In this document: piece after piece, positions 50,818-63,727 of the stretch
Layout: every line of letters begins with the position of its first letter
How positions within the stretch are numbered: position 1 is the first letter of the stretch
Assembly (NCBI GenBank): GCA_017860345.1
Contig: JAFNAV010000008.1
Span: 119,543-183,542 of the forward strand
Length of the DNA: 64,000 nt
Reading direction: 5' to 3'
From: Bacteroidota bacterium
Lineage (GTDB): Bacteria; Bacteroidota; Bacteroidia; Bacteroidales; Paludibacteraceae
Notes under the pieces: model-generated
Database searches by the model: none
What the model saw: the letters and a program-made list of their open reading frames with translations, nothing else
Told to the model about the DNA's origin: nothing
Position numbers and translations under genes: made by a program

Positions 50818-51951
50818 TTATTTGATAAGTTCAGCAAGTTTCTTTTCCAGATCTTCGCCTCTTAAATTTCTTGCTACAATTTTACCATTAGGGTCAATCA
50901 GGAAGTTTTGCGGAATGCTTCTTACCATATAAAGCTTACCTACTTCATTGTCCCAGCCTTTCAGATCCGAAACCTGTGTCCAGGTCAGTTGGTCGTCGGC
51001 AATGGCTTTTATCCAGGCATCTTTTTGTTTTTCAGCGTCTAACGAAACTCCGAGTATCGTAAAGTTCTTGTCTTTATATTGATTAAAAGCCTTCACTACA
51101 TTCGGATTTTCTCTGCGACATGGTCCGCACCACGAAGCCCAGAAATCAATCAGAACATATTTTCCTTTGAAATCAGATAATTTTACCATTTTACCCTGAA
51201 CGTCGGTCTGTGCAAAATCGGGAGCTATGGCACCGATGGCGATTTTCTTGTTTTTATTCAGTTCGGCAGCAAAGGCAACGCCGCTTTCCGAATTTTGAAC
51301 AGATTGCGACAGTCCATTAAACAGAGGTTCTATCACTTGTACATCAACCGGTCCCGAACCAATCAGCGACTTAATGACATCTAACGAAATGATACTGTTT
51401 GGATTAGTTTTGATGAATTCGGTCTGAATCTTATTAATTTCAGCAAGTGCCGCCTCATACTTTTTATCAATTTCGGCTTCAAAAGCTTCCGATTGCTGCT
51501 TTTCTTTAGAGGCCGTTCTGTATTCGGTCAAAACGGCCGTTAAAGCGGAGTTAGCCGGTTTCAGGCTACTTTTCAATGTTTTGTATTCATTGTTGATAGC
51601 TGTTCCGGTAATGCTTGCATCTTCGATAGAATCTTGAGCTGCAACCACTGTTTTGCCTTCTACAAGATAAAAATCCGTATAATCTACATTTCTTGATGTT
51701 CGAATCGTTTGTAAACCAACGCCTTTCTTGTCAAATAGCAAGTTTGCTTTTCTGGGTTCGGATATTTTTCCTTTAAACTCGAATACTCCATTTTTCAGGG
51801 TAGCCGAATCCGTAAGATTACGTCCGCTGAGCAGGTAAACTTTAGCAGGGGCATTGTAATTTCCAATTTTTCCGGAAATTGTGTATAACCCTTCTTGCGC
51901 AAAAATTGATAGTGGAATTAATAATCCAATAAATAAAACATTTCTTTTCAT
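50818..51951 (-). CDS. TlpA-family disulfide reductase with DUF4369
   Basis: The 377-residue secreted protein has a signal peptide ending IFAQ (residues 16-19). An N-terminal DUF4369-like beta domain follows (YTISGKIGNYNAPAKVYLLSG; SEPRKANLLFD), then a helical linker, and a C-terminal TlpA/thioredoxin domain starting at APDFAQTDVQGK with WCGPC (CGPC at 275-278) and the cis-Pro in RSIPQNFLID. It would reduce periplasmic disulfides, drawing electrons from the DsbD encoded two genes on. A TACATTTG element (minus strand, 52079-52086) may start it. Confidence 0.9.
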   Translation of the reverse strand: MKRNVLFIGLLIPLSIFAQEGLYTISGKIGNYNAPAKVYLLSGRNLTDSATLKNGVFEFKGKISEPRKANLLFDKKGVGLQTIRTSRNVDYTDFYLVEGKTVVAAQDSIEDASITGTAINNEYKTLKSSLKPANSALTAVLTEYRTASKEKQQSEAFEAEIDKKYEAALAEINKIQTEFIKTNPNSIISLDVIKSLIGSGPVDVQVIEPLFNGLSQSVQNSESGVAFAAELNKNKKIAIGAIAPDFAQTDVQGKMVKLSDFKGKYVLIDFWASWCGPCRRENPNVVKAFNQYKDKNFTILGVSLDAEKQKDAWIKAIADDQLTWTQVSDLKGWDNEVGKLYMVRSIPQNFLIDPNGKIVARNLRGEDLEKKLAELIK

Positions 51952-52436: not shown

Positions 52437-54344
52437 CTAATTTTTTTTCAACCACTCCTTAAACTTGCGTACGCCATCCATCCAGACCTCGCACATTACC
52501 CTACCTTTAGGCAGGCGGCGAAGGCTGTATTCAAACGTGCCGTTTTTGATGTTTGCATATTCGTGCCGCTCTACTTCCTTTTCGTTTACCAATATGCGGA
52601 CTTCGATTTTGCTCCATTTGTTTGAAAACAGGTTTAGCTTGACCACATCGTCGGTAAGCCGCGGATAGAGTAGGACGGCATAGTTGCCCTTAATGGTGTC
52701 GGTTGCATACGTGGCATCCGCTACAAAAGCCAGTTTCTCGCCACTGCCGCAATCGCTTGTGAAAGCGTGTATCAGGTTTCCTTTCAGGTCGAGCAACCGC
52801 AGGTATCCGGCTCCATTTTGGGGTTCTGCCCAAAACTCAAGGCCGTCGCCGGCGCTGTCGGTCAGGCAAATTTCGTATTTGCCCTCCCGGAGGTGTATCG
52901 TGTCCTGATAAAGCGTTGCCGGTTTCAACTCATCGGGATGTTTTATAAACACCGTATCGGAGGTGTTGACCACAAAAAGCGTATTGTCTTTGGGGCGGTT
53001 GTTGGTTAAAAAGGCAACCACAAAGTCCTTTGGCATTTTGGTAGGCGCTGTAAATATAGATGTCAAGCTGTTGTCGCCTGTCCATTCGTCGTTTTTGCCG
53101 TTGGGCTTGGTAAGCACGGCGGTAAACCGGTTGACGCCCTGTTTAAAATCAACTTCTCCGGGCAACACTATATCTGCCGTAGCATTAAATTTCAATTCGC
53201 CCGTCCAATGATATGTTTTCATGGCAAACCCCTCCGTTCCGTAGCTTATGGTTGCCGAGCGAAGGATGGCAGAGCCGAGATTGCGAATCACTACCCGCGG
53301 ATAGAAACAGGCCGGATTGAGCCGCCCGAACTGCTGTTCGTCGGATGGTACCCTTATTTTTTCCAGTCGGGCATCCGCTTTTTTCAACGGGGCGGAGTAT
53401 TGGAACAGATAGGCCGATATATCTTCTTCGGCTTCCGCCTTTCCGGTGGCATTATAAGGTTCCATCTCCAGAGCTACCGAATGTTCGCCTTCCGACACTT
53501 CGGCATCTATCAGATCGGGGGATTGTAAATCGCCGGGACACCAGTTTCCTCTTTTGTACGCCCACGTCCCGCCCTGCGGGTACAGGGGGTTTTCTCCGCA
53601 ATTTTTCCACAAATCACGTCTGTCTACCTCCTTGCCGTCAATAGCAAGCGTTCTCCATCGTTTACAAAACTCGCTGCATCCGCGTTTTTCATCCATTCCG
53701 TGTCCGGTTTGCTGAATGCGTATGCGGCTGATTGTCTTCCCCGCGGGCGAGATATAGCTGACCGGCAAAACGACGGTTTGGATAGGATGCGCCGGGTCGC
53801 CATACTTAAAGTTGGCATTCCATAAGGGGACAATGCCCAACGGGTTGGCCGCCGGAGGCCCTTCCACACAGTCGAACGAGAGGGTCAACGCCCACCCGAC
53901 CGATGCGGGTTCGAAGCCCGTATGTACATATACCATCTCCACACTATCGCGCAGGAACGGAGCAAAATCGCTGACGTCGGCCTGCCACTTCCAACTCCAC
54001 CCCTTGCCGAACATATTGCCGTAAGGGGTAAGCATAAACCCCAGCGTGTAATTGAGCGTTTTGCCCGATTTACCACCCACCTTACGGAGTATGATGCGGT
54101 CAGAATAGTCCCAGTGAGCCGTCGGCAGACTGTCGGGGCTACCGAGGGTAAGGTTCAGCGTGATTTGCCGTATCGGCGTTTTGGCGGATGGGAACACCCC
54201 CCAAGCCGGATACTCTTTAGTTCCAACCGCCGGATTGGTTACTACAGTGGTGCGGTTATGCGTAACCACCTCCCTTATCTTAGCCCGCTGAGCAAACAGG
54301 GTTGGTGAAATAGCTAACAAAAAGAATAAGATACTCTTCCTCAT
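52437..54344 (-). CDS. PNGase F-like secreted amidase
   Basis: The 635-residue protein has a signal peptide ending LFAQ (residues 16-19). Its first 330 residues match the two domains of peptide-N-glycosidase F, which cleaves N-glycans from asparagine. D79 (in AHWDYSD) aligns with catalytic D60 of Elizabethkingia PNGase F, and E225 (in GCSEFC) with E206 (in GCAEWC). Cys pairs C223/C227 and C249/C269, the latter in RGNWCPG, match two of its three disulfides. The third pair is absent, and the place of E118 is taken by Thr or His (near residue 141). Residues after about 335 form extra beta-rich domains not in classic PNGase F. It starts 8 nt after the tlpA-type gene. The DNA looks richer in G and C than that of neighbouring genes. 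Confidence 0.82.
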   Translation of the reverse strand: MRKSILFFLLAISPTLFAQRAKIREVVTHNRTTVVTNPAVGTKEYPAWGVFPSAKTPIRQITLNLTLGSPDSLPTAHWDYSDRIILRKVGGKSGKTLNYTLGFMLTPYGNMFGKGWSWKWQADVSDFAPFLRDSVEMVYVHTGFEPASVGWALTLSFDCVEGPPAANPLGIVPLWNANFKYGDPAHPIQTVVLPVSYISPAGKTISRIRIQQTGHGMDEKRGCSEFCKRWRTLAIDGKEVDRRDLWKNCGENPLYPQGGTWAYKRGNWCPGDLQSPDLIDAEVSEGEHSVALEMEPYNATGKAEAEEDISAYLFQYSAPLKKADARLEKIRVPSDEQQFGRLNPACFYPRVVIRNLGSAILRSATISYGTEGFAMKTYHWTGELKFNATADIVLPGEVDFKQGVNRFTAVLTKPNGKNDEWTGDNSLTSIFTAPTKMPKDFVVAFLTNNRPKDNTLFVVNTSDTVFIKHPDELKPATLYQDTIHLREGKYEICLTDSAGDGLEFWAEPQNGAGYLRLLDLKGNLIHAFTSDCGSGEKLAFVADATYATDTIKGNYAVLLYPRLTDDVVKLNLFSNKWSKIEVRILVNEKEVERHEYANIKNGTFEYSLRRLPKGRVMCEVWMDGVRKFKEWLKKN

Positions 54345-54352
54345 TTGTTTTG

Positions 54353-56404
54353 TTATTTTACTGATTCGATCATCGCGTTTATTTCGTCGATGAGCTTGCC
54401 TTCTTCAAGTACAGCACCTACGGCAATGTAACGGATATTCCCGTTTCTGTCGATCACTATTTTTGTGGGGATGCTGCTCACCTTCAAACCGGCGGATACT
54501 TTACTGCCGGTGTCGAACAATACGTGGAACGGATAGTCGTTTTTAGTGATGAACTCTTTAACGGCTGCTTTGTTCTCATCCACTGTTTTGAACCGCTCGA
54601 AGGTGTCAACAAAGAGAAACACCACATCGGGATTGTTTTGGAAAAGAGTTTGTAATTTTTTCATGCCGGGAAAGCTCATCTTGCAGGGTACGCACCAGGT
54701 TGCCCAAAAGTCGAGAATCACCGTTTTTCCTTTGAAGTCGGCCAAACTTACGGTTTTTCCTTCCAAGTCGGTGAGCGTGAATGGCGGTGCGGGTTCGTTG
54801 ATTTGCCGTGCCAATACCGATGCTTTTACTTCGTTGAGGTTCGATTGTTTCAGACCGCCGAGATAAGTGTCGAAACCGACCTCTGAGCCTTTTTCTTTGG
54901 TATAAATCCGCTGGAGGGTAGTTACCAACGACTGATTCCAGTAGCCTTCGATCACCAAGTTTTCTAACTCCTTTTTCAGCTTTTGTTCGGGCAACTGGCT
55001 CTCGGCCAATGATACGTACAACTCCCTAATATCAGGTGTGTAGTAAAAATCGTTCGGCAAGGTAGCAAGACACTCCTTAGCTTTGGCTATGTAGCTAAAA
55101 GCCTTAGCTTTGTCATTTTGCGTGTCGCACAACTGGGCAAGTTTCCAGCAGATGTATATTCGTCCGGTTTGGATTTGTTCCAATTTGGAATCCCGATCCA
55201 AAAAATCGTCCCATACGCCATACGAGGGAGCTTTGCCCGATTTTATCTTCTCATATTGCTCACCAAAATAGGCCAGATACTCCTCTGCCTCGCTTTCGGC
55301 TAAAGGTAAGTCCTTCTTCGATTCGGTCAGCATGGAAAAATGAGCGTGAACCAACACACTGGTAAACAACAGGTTTTGCTTGTCGAAATTGAGTTTTTTG
55401 GCAAAGGTTTTGTATTGTTCCTTTGTACCTCGTTTCATCACATCGTCCAAATAGTAGAAACGGGCATTAAAAGGTAAACCCATACTGAAAGTAAATTTTA
55501 GCTTATCGTTGTCGGACAAAGCGTCAAACATGGTCGATAATTTTTCAAGCAGGAAGTATTTCTTATCCAAATCATTCTCCTTATTGTATTCAGAAATTGC
55601 TTTAACCATCACAAACAACGGAGCTATTCCATCGAATTTGGCATTTCGTTCTTTCAAAAAGTATTGGCTCAATTCCTTAAGCTGTATGGTAGTCGCCCAT
55701 TGGCTCAACAGATAATAATCGGTTGATGTGAGGCTGTCTTTTTTTACGATTTTATTGATCTGCTCTTTGGCAATCGGCTCAATATCTTTCAATTCATTGT
55801 CAGAAAAAGTTGCCTTAAAATAAACTACAAAATCCATCTCCGCTTCGGGATTAATTTCCAAATCTTTGAGATAATAGTTGCGGGCCAATCTAAAATTTGC
55901 AAAACCGTAGTTACGCGCCCCGAAAGACAGATAAAGACCGATGTAGAAATTTGCCTTTGGCAACACGTTTCCCTGCTTGTCATAGAGCGGAACTACATAC
56001 CCCAAACTGTCGTTGGAGTCGAATTTCCCCCGTTTCAGCACGAATTTATCACCGATTCTTTTGGTTTTCAGTTGCCCGGCGGTGAAGTTAAACGCCAACG
56101 CCTTGGTCTGTTCGTCCACCGGGACAACGCCCTGATAGAGATTGCCTTTTTTGGTGAGCTTCACCTCTTTTATCTTTTTGGAGCTTTGCGACAGCAATTC
56201 CTGAACGGTATATTCGCCAAACAGATATACGGTGCATTTTATCGTATCCCGAACCGAAAACACGTTGGAATTGGGGGTATAGCTGAATTGCAACGGTTGG
56301 CCGGGCGTCGGTTTTTCGGATTGCAGTTGTAAACGACCGCTTTGAGCAAACAAAGCCATCGAAGCAGTAAGTAAAAAGACAGAAAACAGTATTTTGCGTA
56401 CCAT
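54353..56404 (-). CDS. Long TlpA-type thioredoxin-domain protein
   Basis: The 683-residue protein has a signal peptide ending LFAQ (18-21). A beta-rich N-terminal region follows (about 25-190; LQLQSEKPTPGQPLQFSYTP), then a long helical, TPR-like middle (about 190-520), and a C-terminal TlpA/thioredoxin domain with WCVPC (CVPC at 571-574) and cis-Pro in SSIPTKIVID. It is likely periplasmic or outer-membrane associated and a disulfide reductase or isomerase. It is followed by the PNGase F-like gene after 8 nt, so they form an operon; a 173-bp repeat-like element separates it from susD. A truncated paralogue lies at 52189-52359. Proteins of this layout often accompany SusCD pairs in Bacteroidota. 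Confidence 0.87.
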   Translation of the reverse strand: MVRKILFSVFLLTASMALFAQSGRLQLQSEKPTPGQPLQFSYTPNSNVFSVRDTIKCTVYLFGEYTVQELLSQSSKKIKEVKLTKKGNLYQGVVPVDEQTKALAFNFTAGQLKTKRIGDKFVLKRGKFDSNDSLGYVVPLYDKQGNVLPKANFYIGLYLSFGARNYGFANFRLARNYYLKDLEINPEAEMDFVVYFKATFSDNELKDIEPIAKEQINKIVKKDSLTSTDYYLLSQWATTIQLKELSQYFLKERNAKFDGIAPLFVMVKAISEYNKENDLDKKYFLLEKLSTMFDALSDNDKLKFTFSMGLPFNARFYYLDDVMKRGTKEQYKTFAKKLNFDKQNLLFTSVLVHAHFSMLTESKKDLPLAESEAEEYLAYFGEQYEKIKSGKAPSYGVWDDFLDRDSKLEQIQTGRIYICWKLAQLCDTQNDKAKAFSYIAKAKECLATLPNDFYYTPDIRELYVSLAESQLPEQKLKKELENLVIEGYWNQSLVTTLQRIYTKEKGSEVGFDTYLGGLKQSNLNEVKASVLARQINEPAPPFTLTDLEGKTVSLADFKGKTVILDFWATWCVPCKMSFPGMKKLQTLFQNNPDVVFLFVDTFERFKTVDENKAAVKEFITKNDYPFHVLFDTGSKVSAGLKVSSIPTKIVIDRNGNIRYIAVGAVLEEGKLIDEINAMIESVK

Positions 56405-56621: not shown

Positions 56622-58166
56622 TTAATAGCCCGGATTTTGGATCAGGTTTGGATTAAGCTGTATTTGGGTCAATGGGATAGGCAACAATGCCTTGTAGCTT
56701 GCCCAGCCGGTTTTATAGCTTATTTTTTTCATCACTGCATCGGCGGTACCCCAGCGGCAAAGATCCAACCAACGTTTGCCTTCGCAAGAAAGCTCCAGCG
56801 AACGTTCGGTTTGCACCAATTGCAAAGCCTGGTCTTTGGTGTAAGTACCGCTATATGGAGTGGCGGTAGCACGGTTTCGCACCACATTAATATCGGCAAT
56901 GGCATCGGCGGTATTGCCCTGCTGTGCACGGGCTTCGGCACGGATAAGGTACACCTCTGCCAAACGCATAAATATGCTGGTTTGCGAAATAGGCGCCGCT
57001 GTCGGCGATACCAATAGGGAATAAGCAAGACCATAGCGATACTTCTTAATCTGGTGTTTGGTCCATGTACCCAATTGTGGATACCATTTCGCAAGACGAG
57101 GATCGGTGCCATACACATTTGCCAAACTATCGGTAATATGCCAATCCCTTGATGCTAACATATTGCTAAGATATCCGGCATACAGATTTAATGTAGTAGC
57201 ATACCCTGAATAACCCTTAATGGGAGTTGTAGATTCTGCAATAGAAATAATTGCCTCCTTGCTACCGGTATCAAAAATGGCCTGCAAATCGCTAACCAAC
57301 GAAAAACCGCCGTTGTTGATAACATCGGTAGCCGCCGCTTCGGCTTTTGCCCACTCGCCCATAGCCAGATACATATAGGAGAGATAAGCCTCGGCTTGGT
57401 ATTTGGAGGTGTAATAGATGGTATTGTCGGGCGCTACAGCGGGCAATAAGGAGACAGCCTGCTCCATATCTTTCACGGCTTGTGCCTGTACGGTAGCCTT
57501 AGGTGTGCGTGCCATATTCTTGCTCACAGCCAAGTCGGTGGTAAGTACCAAGGGCACATCGCCAAACAGCAGTGAATGTTCAAAATATACCTGCCCCCTG
57601 AAAAAATATGCCTGCCCCAAGAAGGTGTTGCGTTGGGTGGCGGTTATAGCGGCGGTAGCGGTAGGCAATTTTTCTATCAACCCATTGGCTATACTTGCCA
57701 CGGTATAGTTATTAGCCCAAAAATTGGTAATGGGTTTAAAAACATTAAGATCAGAGGAAGTATAGCCTGCATATACATAATCACCCGCCTCTTGTGCTGC
57801 CGTCATTCCGCTTTGTCGCACTTCATCCGATAAAGTTTCCAAATATTTTATCGGGGTACCTTGTGCACCTCCGTAACCACCAGCTCCATTACCCCAAGAA
57901 TTATACATGTTGTTAATTACCATCTGTATAGCGCCTGCATCGGCATATACCGTTTCGTCGGTGGCCGCCGCGTAGGGTTTGGGTTTATCTAAAAAGGCAT
58001 CGTCGCAGGAGTTCAGCAAAACAATTGCAAGCAAACTCACGAACATAATCTTTGTTGCCTTTAATGCTGTTATTATTCCCAAAAATTCTTTTTTTAGAGA
58101 TTTTGTAGTATAGAACATGCTGATGTCAATCCTATTACTATTTTGATTATTATTGAATCGTTTCAT
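56622..58166 (-). CDS. SusD/RagB family outer-membrane lipoprotein
   Basis: The 514-residue protein is the nutrient-binding lipoprotein partner of SusC. The lipobox LLNSC lies at about residue 54, unusually far in, so the true start may be the Met at residue 17 (MFYTTKSL, 58118) or near it. Mature sequence begins DDAFLDKPKPYAAATDETVYA, typical of SusD. TPR-like helices follow, and the C-terminal SusD region has MRLAEVYLIRAEARAQQGN, CEGKRWLDLCRWG and ALLPIPLTQIQLNPNLIQNPGY, all family hallmarks. It is 27 nt from susC and is co-transcribed. Ligand unknown; the neighbouring PNGase F-like enzyme suggests glycopeptide or N-glycan. Confidence 0.93.
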   Translation of the reverse strand: MKRFNNNQNSNRIDISMFYTTKSLKKEFLGIITALKATKIMFVSLLAIVLLNSCDDAFLDKPKPYAAATDETVYADAGAIQMVINNMYNSWGNGAGGYGGAQGTPIKYLETLSDEVRQSGMTAAQEAGDYVYAGYTSSDLNVFKPITNFWANNYTVASIANGLIEKLPTATAAITATQRNTFLGQAYFFRGQVYFEHSLLFGDVPLVLTTDLAVSKNMARTPKATVQAQAVKDMEQAVSLLPAVAPDNTIYYTSKYQAEAYLSYMYLAMGEWAKAEAAATDVINNGGFSLVSDLQAIFDTGSKEAIISIAESTTPIKGYSGYATTLNLYAGYLSNMLASRDWHITDSLANVYGTDPRLAKWYPQLGTWTKHQIKKYRYGLAYSLLVSPTAAPISQTSIFMRLAEVYLIRAEARAQQGNTADAIADINVVRNRATATPYSGTYTKDQALQLVQTERSLELSCEGKRWLDLCRWGTADAVMKKISYKTGWASYKALLPIPLTQIQLNPNLIQNPGY

Positions 58167-58193: not shown

Positions 58194-61100
58194 TTAAAAT
58201 TTAACCGTAACACCGGCAACAAACGTACGCAACAGCCCAAGTCCGTTGGCATCTTCCCGTTCCGGATCTTTGCCCAAATCGTTGCCCGGCGTAACATAGA
58301 AGAGGTTTTGCCCTCGCAGGTAGATGCTGGCACTCTGTCCTCCTATGGTGGATATCCATTTTGTAGGCAATGCGTAAGACAAGGCAATATTCTGCATTTT
58401 AAAGTAAAACCCTGTACGCAAGGTATTGCCATAATAGTAAGCAGCAGCATCACTTGATTTTGGGTTAGGGTTTAACGGATATAAAATCGGATAGTCGGCA
58501 ATATCGCCCGCTTTCTGCCAATATTTGCCCAATAATATGGCAGGCATATTATTGGCTGAACCAGGATACACCGTATAATTCAACGCATTGGTCATCATTT
58601 TTTTTGCAAAAGAGATTGAAAAATCCAAGGTAAAGCCCTTATAAGATAATGAATTATTAATTCCACCAAAAACGGAAGGCATTTTACTACCGAGTATTTG
58701 GTCATTAGTAAGACCGTCTAACGATGCCTGTTCGACTCCGGTTTTAGGGTTAATCCACAGGGCATGTCCGGTGGCCGGGTCGATGCGGCTAAACAGATAA
58801 CCTGTAAAGTTGTTCAACGATTTGCCGTCGCGGCTATCGGTGGGGTTGTGCAGGGTGTTTTTCTGGAAGGTGATGTTGAAAGCCGTTCTCCAACTGAAAT
58901 CCTTGGTTTTCACGTTCGTTGAGTTGATCTCTATTTCCAATCCCTTGTTGTCCACCTTGCCATCGAAATTTTGCATAATACTTGTCGAACCTGTCTGCGA
59001 AGGAAGAGTTACGCTCATCAACAAATCGGTGGTGCGGTTGTAAAATACGGCAACCGAGGTAGATAATCGTTCGTTAAGGAAGGAGTTTTCCAAAGCTATT
59101 TCGCTCTTGTAAGTAGTTTCCCACTTGATTGCCGAATTAGGCAACGTAGCGGTAATACCTGCATAAGTGTTATAAGAACTTGCCACATTATAAAGTTTGG
59201 AATATATAAAATCGCCTATTTTATCATTACCCGTAACGCCGTAGCTACCTCGCAATTTGCCATAGCTTAACCATGGTAGCGCATTTTTAATAAATGGCTC
59301 GTTGCTGAACATCCAGGCAGCCCCTACAGCGCCGAATTGCCCCCAACGGTTGCTGGGACCGAATTTTGATGAGCCATCACCACGGTAAGTAAGGTTGAGA
59401 ATGTATTTATTGTCCCAATTGGCGTTGACACGACCAAACCAGGAACGTACGTTGTACTGCCCGCTGTAATTACCAATCCCCCTTGTTGAAGCCGTACTAT
59501 AGGCATTGATATAGGCTTCGGTTAGGTAGTCAGTAGCACTCACCGATAGCCCTTTGCTGGTGGTGGTGTACCAGGTAGTACCCGCCAAGACATCAATTTT
59601 GGCTTTGCTGATTGTCGTAGTGTAGGTAAGTTGCGGTTCTATGTTAAAGCTGGTAAAGATGCTGTACCCTTCGTTTGCAGTCGGTTTTGATGTACTAAAA
59701 GGAGAATAAGAGATAACATACTTTCTGCTAACATCGTTTACGTTAAGGTAGTCGGTAGATACAGCTAATTTAGCTGTCAATCCTTTATAGAGCAAATAAC
59801 TAAAATCGCCGCTTACCGAATAGTTAACCGTTTTGGTGTAAGTGGGCGATTTAGCTATCGCATATAAGTTACTATACTTCTGAGTTGCAGTTCCCCAATA
59901 GTAACTGCCATCGGCATTGTACATAGGGAAGTTAGGCGGAAGCTGATAAATAGCGGCAGAGGTACTGCCAAGCGATCCTGTGGCGGGGTGGTATTCTCCA
60001 TTCACAAAACTGAAATTAAGCGATGCCCTGAATTTATTGTTTTCGGAAGTATGGTTGAGGTTCAACTTACCCGATATCTTCTTGTCGTAGGGGTTGGAAA
60101 AATAAGTATCGTGCGTTATATTATACCCAAGAGAAGCAAGATACGATAAATTTTTGTTTCCACCGGTAAGCGTACCGTTTATGTTGCTGATACTACCGTT
60201 GCCATTGTTGAGCAATTTAGGATAGTTATAGTCCTTGGTCTGACTCCATACAAGCAAGTCGGCAACATCATTAGGATCGGGTGTTAAACCGTTAACGGTG
60301 TATGCCTCATGACGAAGAGTCAAATATTGTTGCAAATTGAGAAACTTTGCTTTCACTGGATTATTGAACCCTGTACTGGCATTAACGGTGAAGGAGGTTT
60401 TACCCATTTCTGCTCTTTTGGTAGTGACCAATACTACACCGTTGGCTCCACGCGAACCGTAAATAGCCGTAGCATCGGCATCTTTCAACACATCAATGCT
60501 TACGATGTCGTCTTGGTTGAGGTACGAAAGCGCCGAATGCGAGCCGGTTGAAGATAACCCTTGATTGCCGATATCGGTGGCATCGGTAATAAATACGCCA
60601 TCTACCACATAGAGTGGCGAATTGCCGGAGTTGATGGAGTTTTGCCCCCGCACGTAAATGCGTGGCGATGCGCCAATACCACCGGAATTTTGGTCAATCA
60701 TCACCCCCGACAGCTTTCCTTGCATGGATTGCAGAATGTTGGTTGATGTGGGCTGTACAGTTATCTGCTCTGCTTTTATCGTAGCCACTCCACTGGTTTT
60801 CAGGCGGCGGGTGGTGGTGCCGTAGCCAATTACCTGCACTTCGTCGAGCACATTAACGTTTTCGCTTAACGTAACGTTTAGGGTTTGGGTATTTGCTATT
60901 TTGATTAATTTTTTTTCTAACCCTATAAATGAAAAAGCCACTACATCATCCTTGGGTACTTGTATGGAGTAATTTCCGTTGTAGTCGGTTATGGTGGCTG
61001 CTTTGGAGCTTTGCGAAATAACGGTAACGCCGGCCAGAGGAGTTCCTTCTTTATCTGTAACCTTACCCGAGGCTGTTACCGACGATTTTTCGGACGTGGG

Positions 61101-61505
61101 TTTACTGCTTTTATCCTGTTTTTTTATTATCAGGATGTTGTCGCCTTTTATTTCGTAAGTCAGGTTGGTGTTGGCCAGTATTAAATTCAGCGTGCTTTCA
61201 ATACTTCTTTCACCTTTTTCAACAGATATATGACTATAGGGCGAAACCAGATCTACGGTATACGATATGCGCATCGTAGTTTGCTTATCCAATGCCTTGA
61301 GAGTCTGGTCGAGCGACTGATTTTTGCTTTCAAAACTGACTTTTGTTCCGCTTGATTGGGCTGTAAGCGACTGAACATTTATTATCATGGCCATAGTTAC
61401 AATCAGAGATATACTCAGAAGCAGTTTATGCTTTTTAATTCTGAATAAATTATAACTAAACCGTAAAGAATTTAAGAAAAACTGAGACGTACATTTCTTT
61501 TTCAT
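58194..61505 (-). CDS. SusC/RagA TonB-dependent transporter with STN domain
   Basis: This 1103-residue outer-membrane transporter has a long basic N-terminus and a signal peptide ending TAQ (about residue 50). An STN (secretin/TonB short N-terminal) domain at about 55-135 (VSFESKNQSLDQTLKALDKQ) talks to an anti-sigma factor. A carboxypeptidase-regulatory-like domain follows (VTASGKVTDKEGTPLAGVTV), then the plug (LQSMQGKLSGVMIDQNSGG; PLYVVDGVFI; GSRGANGVVLVTTK) and a 22-strand barrel ending in Phe (VAGVTVKF). The STN domain plus adjacent FecR and ECF sigma genes indicate ligand-triggered transcription. The leader carries a possible antisense RNA (61517-61600). Confidence 0.95.
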   Translation of the reverse strand: MKKKCTSQFFLNSLRFSYNLFRIKKHKLLLSISLIVTMAMIINVQSLTAQSSGTKVSFESKNQSLDQTLKALDKQTTMRISYTVDLVSPYSHISVEKGERSIESTLNLILANTNLTYEIKGDNILIIKKQDKSSKPTSEKSSVTASGKVTDKEGTPLAGVTVISQSSKAATITDYNGNYSIQVPKDDVVAFSFIGLEKKLIKIANTQTLNVTLSENVNVLDEVQVIGYGTTTRRLKTSGVATIKAEQITVQPTSTNILQSMQGKLSGVMIDQNSGGIGASPRIYVRGQNSINSGNSPLYVVDGVFITDATDIGNQGLSSTGSHSALSYLNQDDIVSIDVLKDADATAIYGSRGANGVVLVTTKRAEMGKTSFTVNASTGFNNPVKAKFLNLQQYLTLRHEAYTVNGLTPDPNDVADLLVWSQTKDYNYPKLLNNGNGSISNINGTLTGGNKNLSYLASLGYNITHDTYFSNPYDKKISGKLNLNHTSENNKFRASLNFSFVNGEYHPATGSLGSTSAAIYQLPPNFPMYNADGSYYWGTATQKYSNLYAIAKSPTYTKTVNYSVSGDFSYLLYKGLTAKLAVSTDYLNVNDVSRKYVISYSPFSTSKPTANEGYSIFTSFNIEPQLTYTTTISKAKIDVLAGTTWYTTTSKGLSVSATDYLTEAYINAYSTASTRGIGNYSGQYNVRSWFGRVNANWDNKYILNLTYRGDGSSKFGPSNRWGQFGAVGAAWMFSNEPFIKNALPWLSYGKLRGSYGVTGNDKIGDFIYSKLYNVASSYNTYAGITATLPNSAIKWETTYKSEIALENSFLNERLSTSVAVFYNRTTDLLMSVTLPSQTGSTSIMQNFDGKVDNKGLEIEINSTNVKTKDFSWRTAFNITFQKNTLHNPTDSRDGKSLNNFTGYLFSRIDPATGHALWINPKTGVEQASLDGLTNDQILGSKMPSVFGGINNSLSYKGFTLDFSISFAKKMMTNALNYTVYPGSANNMPAILLGKYWQKAGDIADYPILYPLNPNPKSSDAAAYYYGNTLRTGFYFKMQNIALSYALPTKWISTIGGQSASIYLRGQNLFYVTPGNDLGKDPEREDANGLGLLRTFVAGVTVKF

Positions 61506-61512
61506 ATCTTTG
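61505..61512 (+). promoter_or_regulatory. -7 element of a putative antisense RNA to susC leader
   Basis: TATCTTTG followed by TACTG on the plus strand is an exact -7 consensus, overlapping the susC start codon on the other strand. No TTTG at the usual -33 spacing. A terminator follows 74 nt later. Confidence 0.55.
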
Positions 61513-61516
61513 TACT

Positions 61517-61600
61517 GGGTTTTTTATATGTGAATACTAAACTCAACCTTCGTTTAATCCCCCTTAAAGCTTTTGACCGGGCAAAGGGGGATTTTTTTTG
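61517..61600 (+). ncRNA. Putative antisense sRNA opposite the susC leader
   Basis: A region of about 84 nt on the plus strand lies between a TATCTTTG element (61505-61512) and a hairpin with T-tract: AATCCCCCTT (61556-61565) pairs perfectly with AAGGGGGATT (61584-61593), followed by TTTTTTG. Read on the minus strand the same stem has no T-tract, so it does not look like a terminator for fecR. The RNA would be fully complementary to the leader of susC. In Bacteroides fragilis, similar cis-antisense sRNAs (DonS type) between anti-sigma and susC genes repress PULs. Ends are estimates. Confidence 0.55.
61556..61599 (+). terminator. Plus-strand intrinsic terminator in the fecR-susC gap
   Basis: 10-bp GC-rich stem (61556-61565 with 61584-61593), 18-nt loop, then a run of T. 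Orientation fits the plus strand only. Confidence 0.75.
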
Positions 61601-61722
61601 TGTCGTCCAAGGTTACTTTATCCGACATTTTTTTTGTTTCATCTGTTCATCATTTTTTTTATTTTAATTTTTGAATTGTAATATTTTTTCAGTTTCGTTA
61701 TTGGGAGGCAACTTTCTTTACA

Positions 61723-62739
61723 TTATTCTGCTTCGTCCAAGATTTTTATTTGCCCGTTTTCCGATTTAAACTGGCAGTCGGTAATGATGGTACATAAAAC
61801 CTGTAGTACGGTATTTAAATCATCTGTACCATTGAACGAGCTTACAATTTCCGTCTGAGCTATTCTGTCGCTTTGTATGGTTATGTCTACTCCATACCTG
61901 TTGCTTATGATTTTGGATATTTCTTTCATGGTAAGGTGATCAAAAGTTAAATCGGATGCAATCCATGTTTCGGCCGGGCTTTCACTCTCTTCAATCTGCG
62001 CATGTAAATTTTTATCCGTAACTGTAGGCAGATGAATGGATTCGTTTTTCTCCAGGATACCCATCAACTCAGAATCGCATTCAACTTTCACTTTTCCGCG
62101 GGTTACCGATACTACTATTTCTGTTTGTTCGGGCCAGGCGCTGATGTTGAATGCGGTTCCTAAAACCGTGGTTTTGGCATGCCCCGAATAAATTATAAAT
62201 GGTTTTTCTTTGTTATGAGCAATGTCGAAATACGCTTCGCCTGTGAGCGTTACCTCTCTGAGCTTTTGGTTGAACTGTTCTGATACTTGTATGGTACTTC
62301 CGGCTTTCAAAATCACGAGGCTTCCATCAGGAAGCTTTATATTACGGTTGAATGTAGTAGCCGTGTCGATGGCAGTTACAATTGCCTTTGCTACGAAAGC
62401 CGGAGCTTGCTTGTTGTAAATGTGCAGAAACAAAGCCGAAGCCAGTATTGTTATCAGCGATGCAGCAACCGCTATCGCTTGCCGGTATTTTCTTGTCATC
62501 GGCATTGTCCGGTTCTTGTTGTTCGGCTTTTTACCCAGTATCGATTCCAGTTTTTTCTTTTTTTCTTTGCCGGATAAATGAAAATCAGGTTCATAATCAT
62601 TAAACAGGCTCTGCAGCAGCTTTTGTAGTTCGGCGTCGTCAGTTTTCTGAATCAATTCAGCCAGTTCAATTTTCTCAGAAAAATTTAAATTTCCCGAGGC
62701 TTGTTTGGCAAGTAGTTCGGCTATTTTGTTAGTTTTCAT
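61723..62739 (-). CDS. FecR-family anti-sigma factor
   Basis: The 338-residue inner-membrane protein has a cytoplasmic N-terminal part of about 80 residues (KIAELLAKQASGNLNFSEKI), one transmembrane segment (about residues 87-107, AVAASLITILASALFLHI), then the periplasmic FecR domain (LPDGSLVILKAGSTIQV; EVTLTGEAYFDIAHNKEKPF) and a C-terminal DUF4974 region resembling an STN-like fold (FDHLTMKEISKIISNRYGV). It would hold the ECF sigma factor inactive until the SusC STN domain signals that ligand is bound. It lies between the sigma gene (370 nt upstream) and susC. Confidence 0.94.
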   Translation of the reverse strand: MKTNKIAELLAKQASGNLNFSEKIELAELIQKTDDAELQKLLQSLFNDYEPDFHLSGKEKKKKLESILGKKPNNKNRTMPMTRKYRQAIAVAASLITILASALFLHIYNKQAPAFVAKAIVTAIDTATTFNRNIKLPDGSLVILKAGSTIQVSEQFNQKLREVTLTGEAYFDIAHNKEKPFIIYSGHAKTTVLGTAFNISAWPEQTEIVVSVTRGKVKVECDSELMGILEKNESIHLPTVTDKNLHAQIEESESPAETWIASDLTFDHLTMKEISKIISNRYGVDITIQSDRIAQTEIVSSFNGTDDLNTVLQVLCTIITDCQFKSENGQIKILDEAE

Positions 62740-63109: not shown

Positions 63110-63727
63110 TTACATATTGGTAGTAGTAATGATAAGCAGTATTAAAAGGTCATGATACCTGAGATGGATATATTTTTGGATGTTGGACATGGCCAGTTTC
63201 ATATGGCTTTGAATGGTGGACACCGATAGATTAAGTTGTCTGGCAATTTCGTCCTGCCTGATACCTTCAATTTTATACAGGGTGTATACTTTTTTTTGTT
63301 GTACAGGTAGTTTTTCTACGGCTTCGTCTAAAATTTCCTGCAGTTCTACCTGCACCATTAGTTCCAGTGGATTATCGGAATGTTGCTGCGAGTTTTTTAC
63401 AGCAATATCGGGTTGTATTGCAGGTATAAGCACTTCTTTGGCCTGACGTCTTAGTTCGTCGATAGCGCTGTTTTGAGCCATTTTAAAAAGTAAGGCATAG
63501 GCATTTTCAAAGTCATAAATTTCATCTCTGTTTTGCCAAATCTTTAAAAAAACATCTTGAGTAATGTCTTCGGCTTTAGCTTTTGAGCGCGTAATTTTGA
63601 GTAAGAAGCCATAAAGTTTGTCGTAGTACAGATAAAAAAAACGGGCAAAAGCAGCTTCATCTCCTGCACCGATACGATGAAGGAGTTGTGTGTTGTTTGT
63701 CTTGCTTGTACTGCTTTTTTCTTGCAT
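63110..63727 (-). CDS. ECF-type RNA polymerase sigma factor
   Basis: The 205-residue sigma-70 family protein is of the extracytoplasmic-function group expanded in Bacteroidota. Region 2 carries YYDKLYGFLLKITRSKAKAEDITQDVFLKIW, given here in two parts: YYDKLYGFLLKIT and AEDITQDVFLKIW (the -10 recognition helix). Region 4 has KVYTLYKIEGIRQDEIARQL and the HTH LSVSTIQSHMKLAM. It should direct RNA polymerase to the susCD promoter when released by the adjacent FecR. A TACATTTG element (minus strand, 63757-63764) is a possible promoter for this gene itself. Confidence 0.94.
   Translation of the reverse strand: MQEKSSTSKTNNTQLLHRIGAGDEAAFARFFYLYYDKLYGFLLKITRSKAKAEDITQDVFLKIWQNRDEIYDFENAYALLFKMAQNSAIDELRRQAKEVLIPAIQPDIAVKNSQQHSDNPLELMVQVELQEILDEAVEKLPVQQKKVYTLYKIEGIRQDEIARQLNLSVSTIQSHMKLAMSNIQKYIHLRYHDLLILLIITTTNM

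Follow-up and report, generated by a model that had tools for sequence, protein, structure and literature searches.

A predicted DonS-type antisense RNA with its promoter box over the start codon of an anti-sigma-linked susC gene

The plus strand at 61505-61599 probably makes an antisense RNA of ~83 nt that pairs with nearly the whole leader of a susC-type transporter gene and lowers its expression, as reported for DonS; we put the probability of this reading, which is based on sequence comparison, at roughly 78%. The window, the whole 64,000-nucleotide stretch of Bacteroidota DNA analysed here, carries on its minus strand an ECF sigma factor gene followed by fecR, a 217-nt gap, susC, susD, and genes for redox and other proteins (Table 1). 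The sigma/anti-sigma pair lies directly upstream of susC and would presumably control it. A first-pass annotation, made from the letters of the window, had proposed a DonS-type cis-antisense RNA in the gap. Comparison with other loci favors that proposal through a conserved unit, compensatory changes in its stem, and recurrence of the unit between fecR and susC.

Table 1 Features of the predicted antisense unit and its locus in the window.
Feature	Position	Strand	Basis
ECF sigma factor (TIGR02985)	63110..63727	-	family profile match
FecR-type anti-sigma factor	61723..62739	-	ORF and domain match
Possible ECF-sigma promoter of susC, TGTCGG-N16-CGACA	61601..61627	-	inferred from motif
Predicted antisense RNA, ~83 nt	61517..61599	+	start inferred from box placement, end from T-run
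Eight-T run, end of predicted RNA	61592..61599	+	sequence
Terminator hairpin with 3-nt bulge (61566-61568) and inner stem GCTT 61569-61572 / GGGC 61579-61582	61556..61593	+	
Outer stem AATCCCCCTT / AAGGGGGATT, 10 bp, 5 of them G-C	61556-61565 / 61584-61593	+	
TATCTTTG, sigma-A type -7 box of predicted antisense promoter	61505..61512	+	exact match
susC start codon ATG, context CAAAGATATG	61503..61505	-	sequence; frame test 70/71
susC-type TonB-dependent transporter (TIGR04056), target of predicted antisense RNA	58194..61505	-	ORF and profile matches
susD-type lipoprotein	56622..58166	-	ORF and domain match
Thioredoxin/AhpC-TSA-like protein of the locus	54353..56404	-	domain match
PNGase F C-terminal domain protein (PF09113, 47 bits)	52437..54344	-	Pfam
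Redoxin with DUF4369	50818..51951	-	domain match

The exact plus-strand -7 element noted by the first-pass annotation, TATCTTTG, is present as described. It had been placed between fecR and susC and lies mostly in that gap, but its first T (61505) is the complement of the A in the susC ATG, so the box overlaps the gene by one base and is not wholly intergenic. A passage of PMC9723704 puts the TAnnTTTG box of F. psychrophilum at -12 to -5, a placement that sets the start of the RNA at 61517 and its length at 83 nt. This agrees with the size of about 80 nt antisense to the leader that had been proposed, and the placement of box and terminator fits. The hairpin, said to follow 75-90 nt after the box, ends 81 nt past it and starts at 44 nt, so the earlier distance holds for the end of the stem and not for its start; the 10 bp and the T-run stand, with half of the pairs being G-C in a stem that had been called GC-rich. 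The predicted fold consists of a weak 5′ hairpin and the terminator, with its bulge and inner GCUU/(G)GGC stem, and is better than the folds of 196 of 200 shuffled sequences (z -2.28). A simple terminator scan restricted to loops of 3-8 nt did not list the 61556-61593 hairpin. In an Rfam search of the window only two tRNAs reached the gathering score, and the best match at 61400-61750 (E 0.22) fell far under the cut-off. The hairpin sits between fecR and susC and could on that account be the fecR terminator or a genomic repeat, an explanation to which we give almost no weight: read in the minus direction, the stem leads into AAACGAAGG, which has no T-run, and this bears out the argument made earlier against a fecR terminator. 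A repeat origin was rejected, with one copy of the element found in the genome and a sole other match at E<0.1 that covers 29 bases inside an ORF.

Among 60 related genomes, a FecR close to that of the window was found only in G016, in three tandem modules (40-42%), and in G026 (45%); a further locus, L073 in G063, was identified by pattern search. The G016 loci (L044, L045) comprise three sigma-FecR-SusC modules, each with its own antisense unit. At the site equivalent to that of the window box, all three modules and G063 carry CATATCTTTG, and in all four a hairpin with a T-run lies at equal distance from the box despite leaders that differ in length and sequence. The SusC proteins of these loci are at most 39% identical to the window SusC over the compared region. 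Promoter and hairpin, whose loss in close relatives had been raised as a sign against the RNA, are thus retained in the three G016 loci and in G063 but not intact in G026, which has a related FecR, a box with one letter changed (TATCTTTA), and a damaged stem; we count this locus against the antisense reading. Within the genus, 3 of 48 genomes contain the exact pattern, at five places in total, each of them a FecR-susC gap. A collection of 84,980 species yielded seven records of it, and L073 was the only one at a FecR-susC gap; the six other records stand in unrelated contexts, look like chance, and were set aside.

With the window left out, a covariance model built from the G016 and G063 units alone scores the window unit at 47 bits, with E 3.2e-6 in a search of 109 kb; in the whole genome, too, this unit is its best match (E 9.2e-5). 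In an alignment of six units, pairing holds for 97.1% of cells, and 5 of the 12 pairs have changed on both sides, compared with a shuffled mean of 1.3 and 0-2 in slid versions of the alignment; these are the compensatory changes that the first-pass annotation had suggested looking for in related susC loci. The alignment behind these counts was itself fitted to the structure, and 29 of 500 shuffles did as well on one of the five pairing measures, that of further pair types; both points count against the antisense reading. The row L045:14311-14392 of alignment A6, just past the end of an unrelated gene, was removed and the count redone. An inner U.G pair, which would be A.C on the opposite strand, is retained in five of the six units.

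Weaker matches of the model within the genus were inspected at 12 loci, most of which made no sense, and two fell on a mobile-element-like gene with a similar layout. Under strict filters, 295 genomes of the order gave one other match at E<=0.02, opposite a FecR-susC gap in G152, a genome of another family. When covariance model R1 was run on five chosen loci of other orders it matched one, L285, at the homologous place (33.2 bits, E 2.4e-4 in 17 kb). L285 has the GCUU...GGGC inner stem and a -7 box one base short, and the FecR beside it scores higher than any other outside the order (38% identity).

As a separate observation, the inner-stem GCUU and GGC (window 61569-61582; alignment A7) are kept in sequence across the genus except in G026, and also in L285. 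They are perhaps kept beyond the needs of pairing, and may be read by a protein or a partner RNA.

These comparisons bear on the view that a spurious antisense promoter and a chance hairpin, neither with any function, happen to coincide here. The box is frequent by itself (TATCTTTG occurs 9 times in the window against 3.5 expected, and the looser TAnnTTTG 89 times against 75), and random promoters may cause part of the antisense transcription in these bacteria, according to a section of PMC7366714. A match by a model blind to the window, the covariation of the stem, and the exact position of the box at many loci make such a coincidence very unlikely.

The relation between box and start codon was surveyed in the order as the motif CAAAnnTATG at the susC start, which corresponds to an antisense TAnnTTTG whose first T is opposite the A of ATG. 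This start-codon rule held in 70 of 159 FecR-susC pairs, a fraction that is not a rate for the order because G152 was chosen for its model match and six further genomes for their many FecR genes or for kinship (G016). The 159 are the distinct usable pairs from 244 FecR frames, and loci from other searches (L002-L006, L069-L072, L074, L075, and L077-L103) were left out. By genome, the rule was found in 26/31 pairs of G304, 23/37 of G152, 8/11 of G111, 3/3 of G016, 1/1 of G063, 2/9 of G042, 2/16 of G106, 1/8 of G213, 1/6 of the window genome, 0/1 of G026, and 3/36 of the others. Elsewhere the motif is rare, standing at 1 of 408 other ORF starts and at 100 of the 23,629 ATGs that the loci contain, a count that takes in the 70 susC starts; at the background rate, the 365 in-frame ATGs tried at the 159 genes would give at most ~1.5 chance matches.

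The rule travels with the terminator. An antisense hairpin with a T-run, counted if it ended 45-150 nt upstream of the ATG, accompanies 62 of the 70 pairs with the rule versus 14 of the 89 without it (Fisher p 2.8e-21), and a box with one letter changed is present in 7 of those 14 versus 6 of the 75 pairs with neither feature. The RNAs predicted from the 62 units measure 67-141 nt, 50 of them within the published range of 78-128 nt. On the SusC tree, well-supported independent pairs favored the rule-terminator link by 6.6 to 1.4 of 12, which is not significant (median p 0.125) and is counted against the antisense reading. The rule itself is clustered on that tree, with at least 12 changes on well-supported branches and 32 on the best tree against a shuffled mean of 51.7; clustered yet often changed, it is either old and often lost or was gained repeatedly. 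A -33 element (TTTG) was not seen and is not enriched in the class, which we also count against the antisense reading. A loop U-turn motif occurs in 29 of the 62 antisense loops against 21.7 expected (p 0.0125) and in 18 on the mRNA side against 18.3; it was one of several things tried and is not used as support.

Of 71 occurrences of the motif in the three frames around the starts, 70 lie in the SusC frame, and over the N-terminal extension the other two frames hold stops in 69/70 and 59/70 cases. Because of this bias and these stops, the CAAAnnTATG codon is very likely the true start. The extension, of ~20-25 codons, precedes the signal peptide and would accommodate the remainder of the antisense promoter. 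The hydrophobic core of SusC was seen to start at residue 23 (median) with the rule versus 13 without it (window 61505-61425), a difference with a Mann-Whitney p of 9e-11, uncorrected for kinship.

A sense-strand motif was also observed in these leaders. In 32 of the 62 units, with ~1.3 expected from shuffles, CCTATG (in 31 instances extended to GCCTATG) has its end 21-45 nt upstream of the hairpin foot; the 32 units belong to G304 (13), G152 (12), and G111 (7) and fall in loci L104-L134 and L154-L260. Of the 8 units that have the rule and lack a terminator, 7 carry the motif, as do 7 of the 75 pairs lacking both features; it is absent in the window. It may be a promoter element or a leader feature.

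The survey also weighs on a different role for the hairpin. It could act in the susC mRNA, as a 5′ stabilizer or an attenuator, with TATCTTTG a by-product of CAAAnnTATG as a preferred translation start context. The possible ECF promoter would place the hairpin at the 5′ extremity of that mRNA, the sense strand is also able to fold it, and A-rich starts are favored in the phylum in the account given in part of PMC7366714. The sense fold (z -1.25), however, is equalled by 23 of 200 shuffles. A stricter hairpin search that demanded no tail found 28 hairpins in the 70 pairs with the rule, of which 23 have the T-run on the antisense side only, 5 on neither, and none on the sense side. Together with the retained U.G pair, the rarity of CAAAnnTATG at other ORF starts, and its co-occurrence with an antisense terminator, this makes a purely sense-strand role unlikely.

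The 61601-61627 motif is possibly the ECF promoter of susC, with the mRNA starting at the hairpin foot; TGTCGG-N14..19-CGACA has this single match in the window (0.08 expected), and 6 of 100 shuffles contain one. The same boxes are present in G016 L044 and missing from G063 and the remaining two G016 loci, another point counted against the antisense reading; those loci may answer to other sigma factors. In the proposed mechanism, the housekeeping sigma factor would make the antisense RNA constantly. Without inducer, basal susC mRNA would be paired along its leader, from the 5′ end up to ~12 nt short of the AUG, and the duplex would block ribosome loading and expose the mRNA to decay, which we regard as the likeliest mode. 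Once the anti-sigma factor releases the ECF sigma factor, susC mRNA would start near the hairpin foot and outnumber the antisense RNA. The predicted RNA does not reach the AUG itself, and this too counts against the antisense reading.

Collisions of the facing polymerases may contribute to repression, and transcriptional interference is the main rival to the RNA-duplex mode: the RNA would be made and hardly act, while a polymerase that sits on the start codon or initiates there blocks or hits the susC polymerase. Such an arrangement would suit an antisense promoter that lies exactly over the start codon, faces a possible sense promoter ~90 nt off, and is fixed in position while loops and stems vary between loci. 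Interference alone calls for no terminator, yet 62 of the 70 units retain one, with predicted RNAs of 67-141 nt, and DonS is described in a passage of PMC11697453 as repressing its PUL by a mechanism that the passage gives as unknown. We consider interference alone doubtful, though less so than the other alternatives, and retain pairing of the RNA with the leader as the preferred mode.

Outside the order, the rule was present in 6 of 37 pairs, all six with a terminator; among the other 31, ten have a terminator, and five of these ten carry a box with one letter changed. This survey also took in L301, a pair of the order with neither feature, and two genomes of a single genus supplied some of its loci. 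Similarity of FecR guided the choice of 17 named loci from Bacteroides, Parabacteroides, Phocaeicola, and Prevotella, and no rate follows from them; rule and terminator occur together in three of them (B. finegoldii L268 and L279, and P. distasonis L284), P. distasonis L270 is one letter off the rule, and in the remaining 13 the rule is absent or no susC is next. In L268 (B. finegoldii NZ_OY725958.1; 3393 and 3462) the annotated SusC start lies 69 nt inside, at the second Met, downstream of the CAAAnnTATG codon, and the rule may therefore go unnoticed where annotated starts are relied on.

The first-pass annotation had also tied the locus to N-glycan use through a PNGase F-like gene. That gene has the C-terminal domain PF09113 but no other PNGase F domain; its product has no further Pfam domain and no NCBIfam match, and PF09113 was all that the window offered when examined as a host or mucosal glycan locus. 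Two of the three G016 modules, examined over their full length, are of the peptidase/redoxin type, with M16 peptidases, redoxins, one alpha/beta hydrolase (S9/S15 kind), and no PNGase domain, pointing to a probable uptake of peptides rather than glycans. The N-glycan link is not upheld by these contents. As far as gene content can tell, the antisense unit follows the anti-sigma/SusC lineage and not N-glycan use.

On balance we favor, with moderate confidence, a wider statement: across the class Bacteroidia, the start codon of an anti-sigma-linked SusC also serves as an antisense promoter, the ATG lies within the -7 box of a built-in repressor RNA, and sequence by itself suffices to recognize the class of such RNAs, well outside Bacteroides and also at loci other than those for glycans. 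If the start-codon reading is true, the start of the transporter and the start of its repressor share letters and cannot drift apart. A fixed anatomy, with the box over the start codon and the terminator 75-150 nt upstream, would allow prediction from sequence in many members of the class and would tie DonS-type RNAs to anti-sigma control, not to glycans. DonS-type RNAs are known from Bacteroides expression data, and the start-codon rule is the more interesting part of this work. The portions of the literature on PUL antisense RNAs consulted here contain no statement of the rule, which may be unreported so far; Cao et al. 2016, reportedly the founding paper on DonS and the PUL-associated cis-antisense RNAs of Bacteroides, may contain one.

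Partial accounts in the literature describe a family to which the window unit can be compared. DonS is placed among cis-antisense RNAs of 78-128 nt divergent to susC homologues, with ten more RNAs of DonS orientation in B. thetaiotaomicron and a TAnnTTTG primary-sigma promoter given for 52% of the cis-antisense RNAs of that species, in the sections concerned of PMC7366714. The B. thetaiotaomicron count was raised to 32 in a passage of PMC10994844 that reports negative or positive correlation of their expression with the PUL, and the positive cases count against a repressor reading. Fifteen such loci are cited for B. fragilis in part of PMC9723704, and the class of PUL antisense RNAs is merely cited in the relevant lines of PMC5635687.

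Like the DonS family, the window unit is a divergent cis-antisense element that overlaps a susC homologue at its 5′ region, in a locus with an ECF sigma/anti-sigma pair, and it has a sigma-A type promoter, a predicted length within the family range, and an intrinsic terminator. It differs in its host, which belongs to another genus of the order and has the unit at one of the six FecR-susC pairs surveyed in its genome, in having two G016 sister loci that resemble peptide and not glycan loci, and in its terminator, which is interrupted by a bulge of 3 nt and whose inner stem, GCUU/(G)GGC, is conserved. A similar layout is seen at L077:1501-1589 (G019) and L080:1501-1582 (G025), where a box (TACTTTTG; CATACTTTTG) lies over a start codon and a GC hairpin and T-run follow 80-90 nt on. 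Unlike that of the window unit, their target is a small protein, next to which the locus has neither FecR nor SusC, and we take its gene to be mobile-element-like. The plasmid copy-number antisense RNAs of the ColE1/R1 type are fully complementary to their targets and folded, and their loops can meet loop to loop; the target in the window would instead be the leader of a transporter mRNA, with no plasmid replication involved. By anatomy, and not by comparison with the DonS sequence, there is good support for regarding the window unit as a likely RNA of the DonS kind outside Bacteroides.
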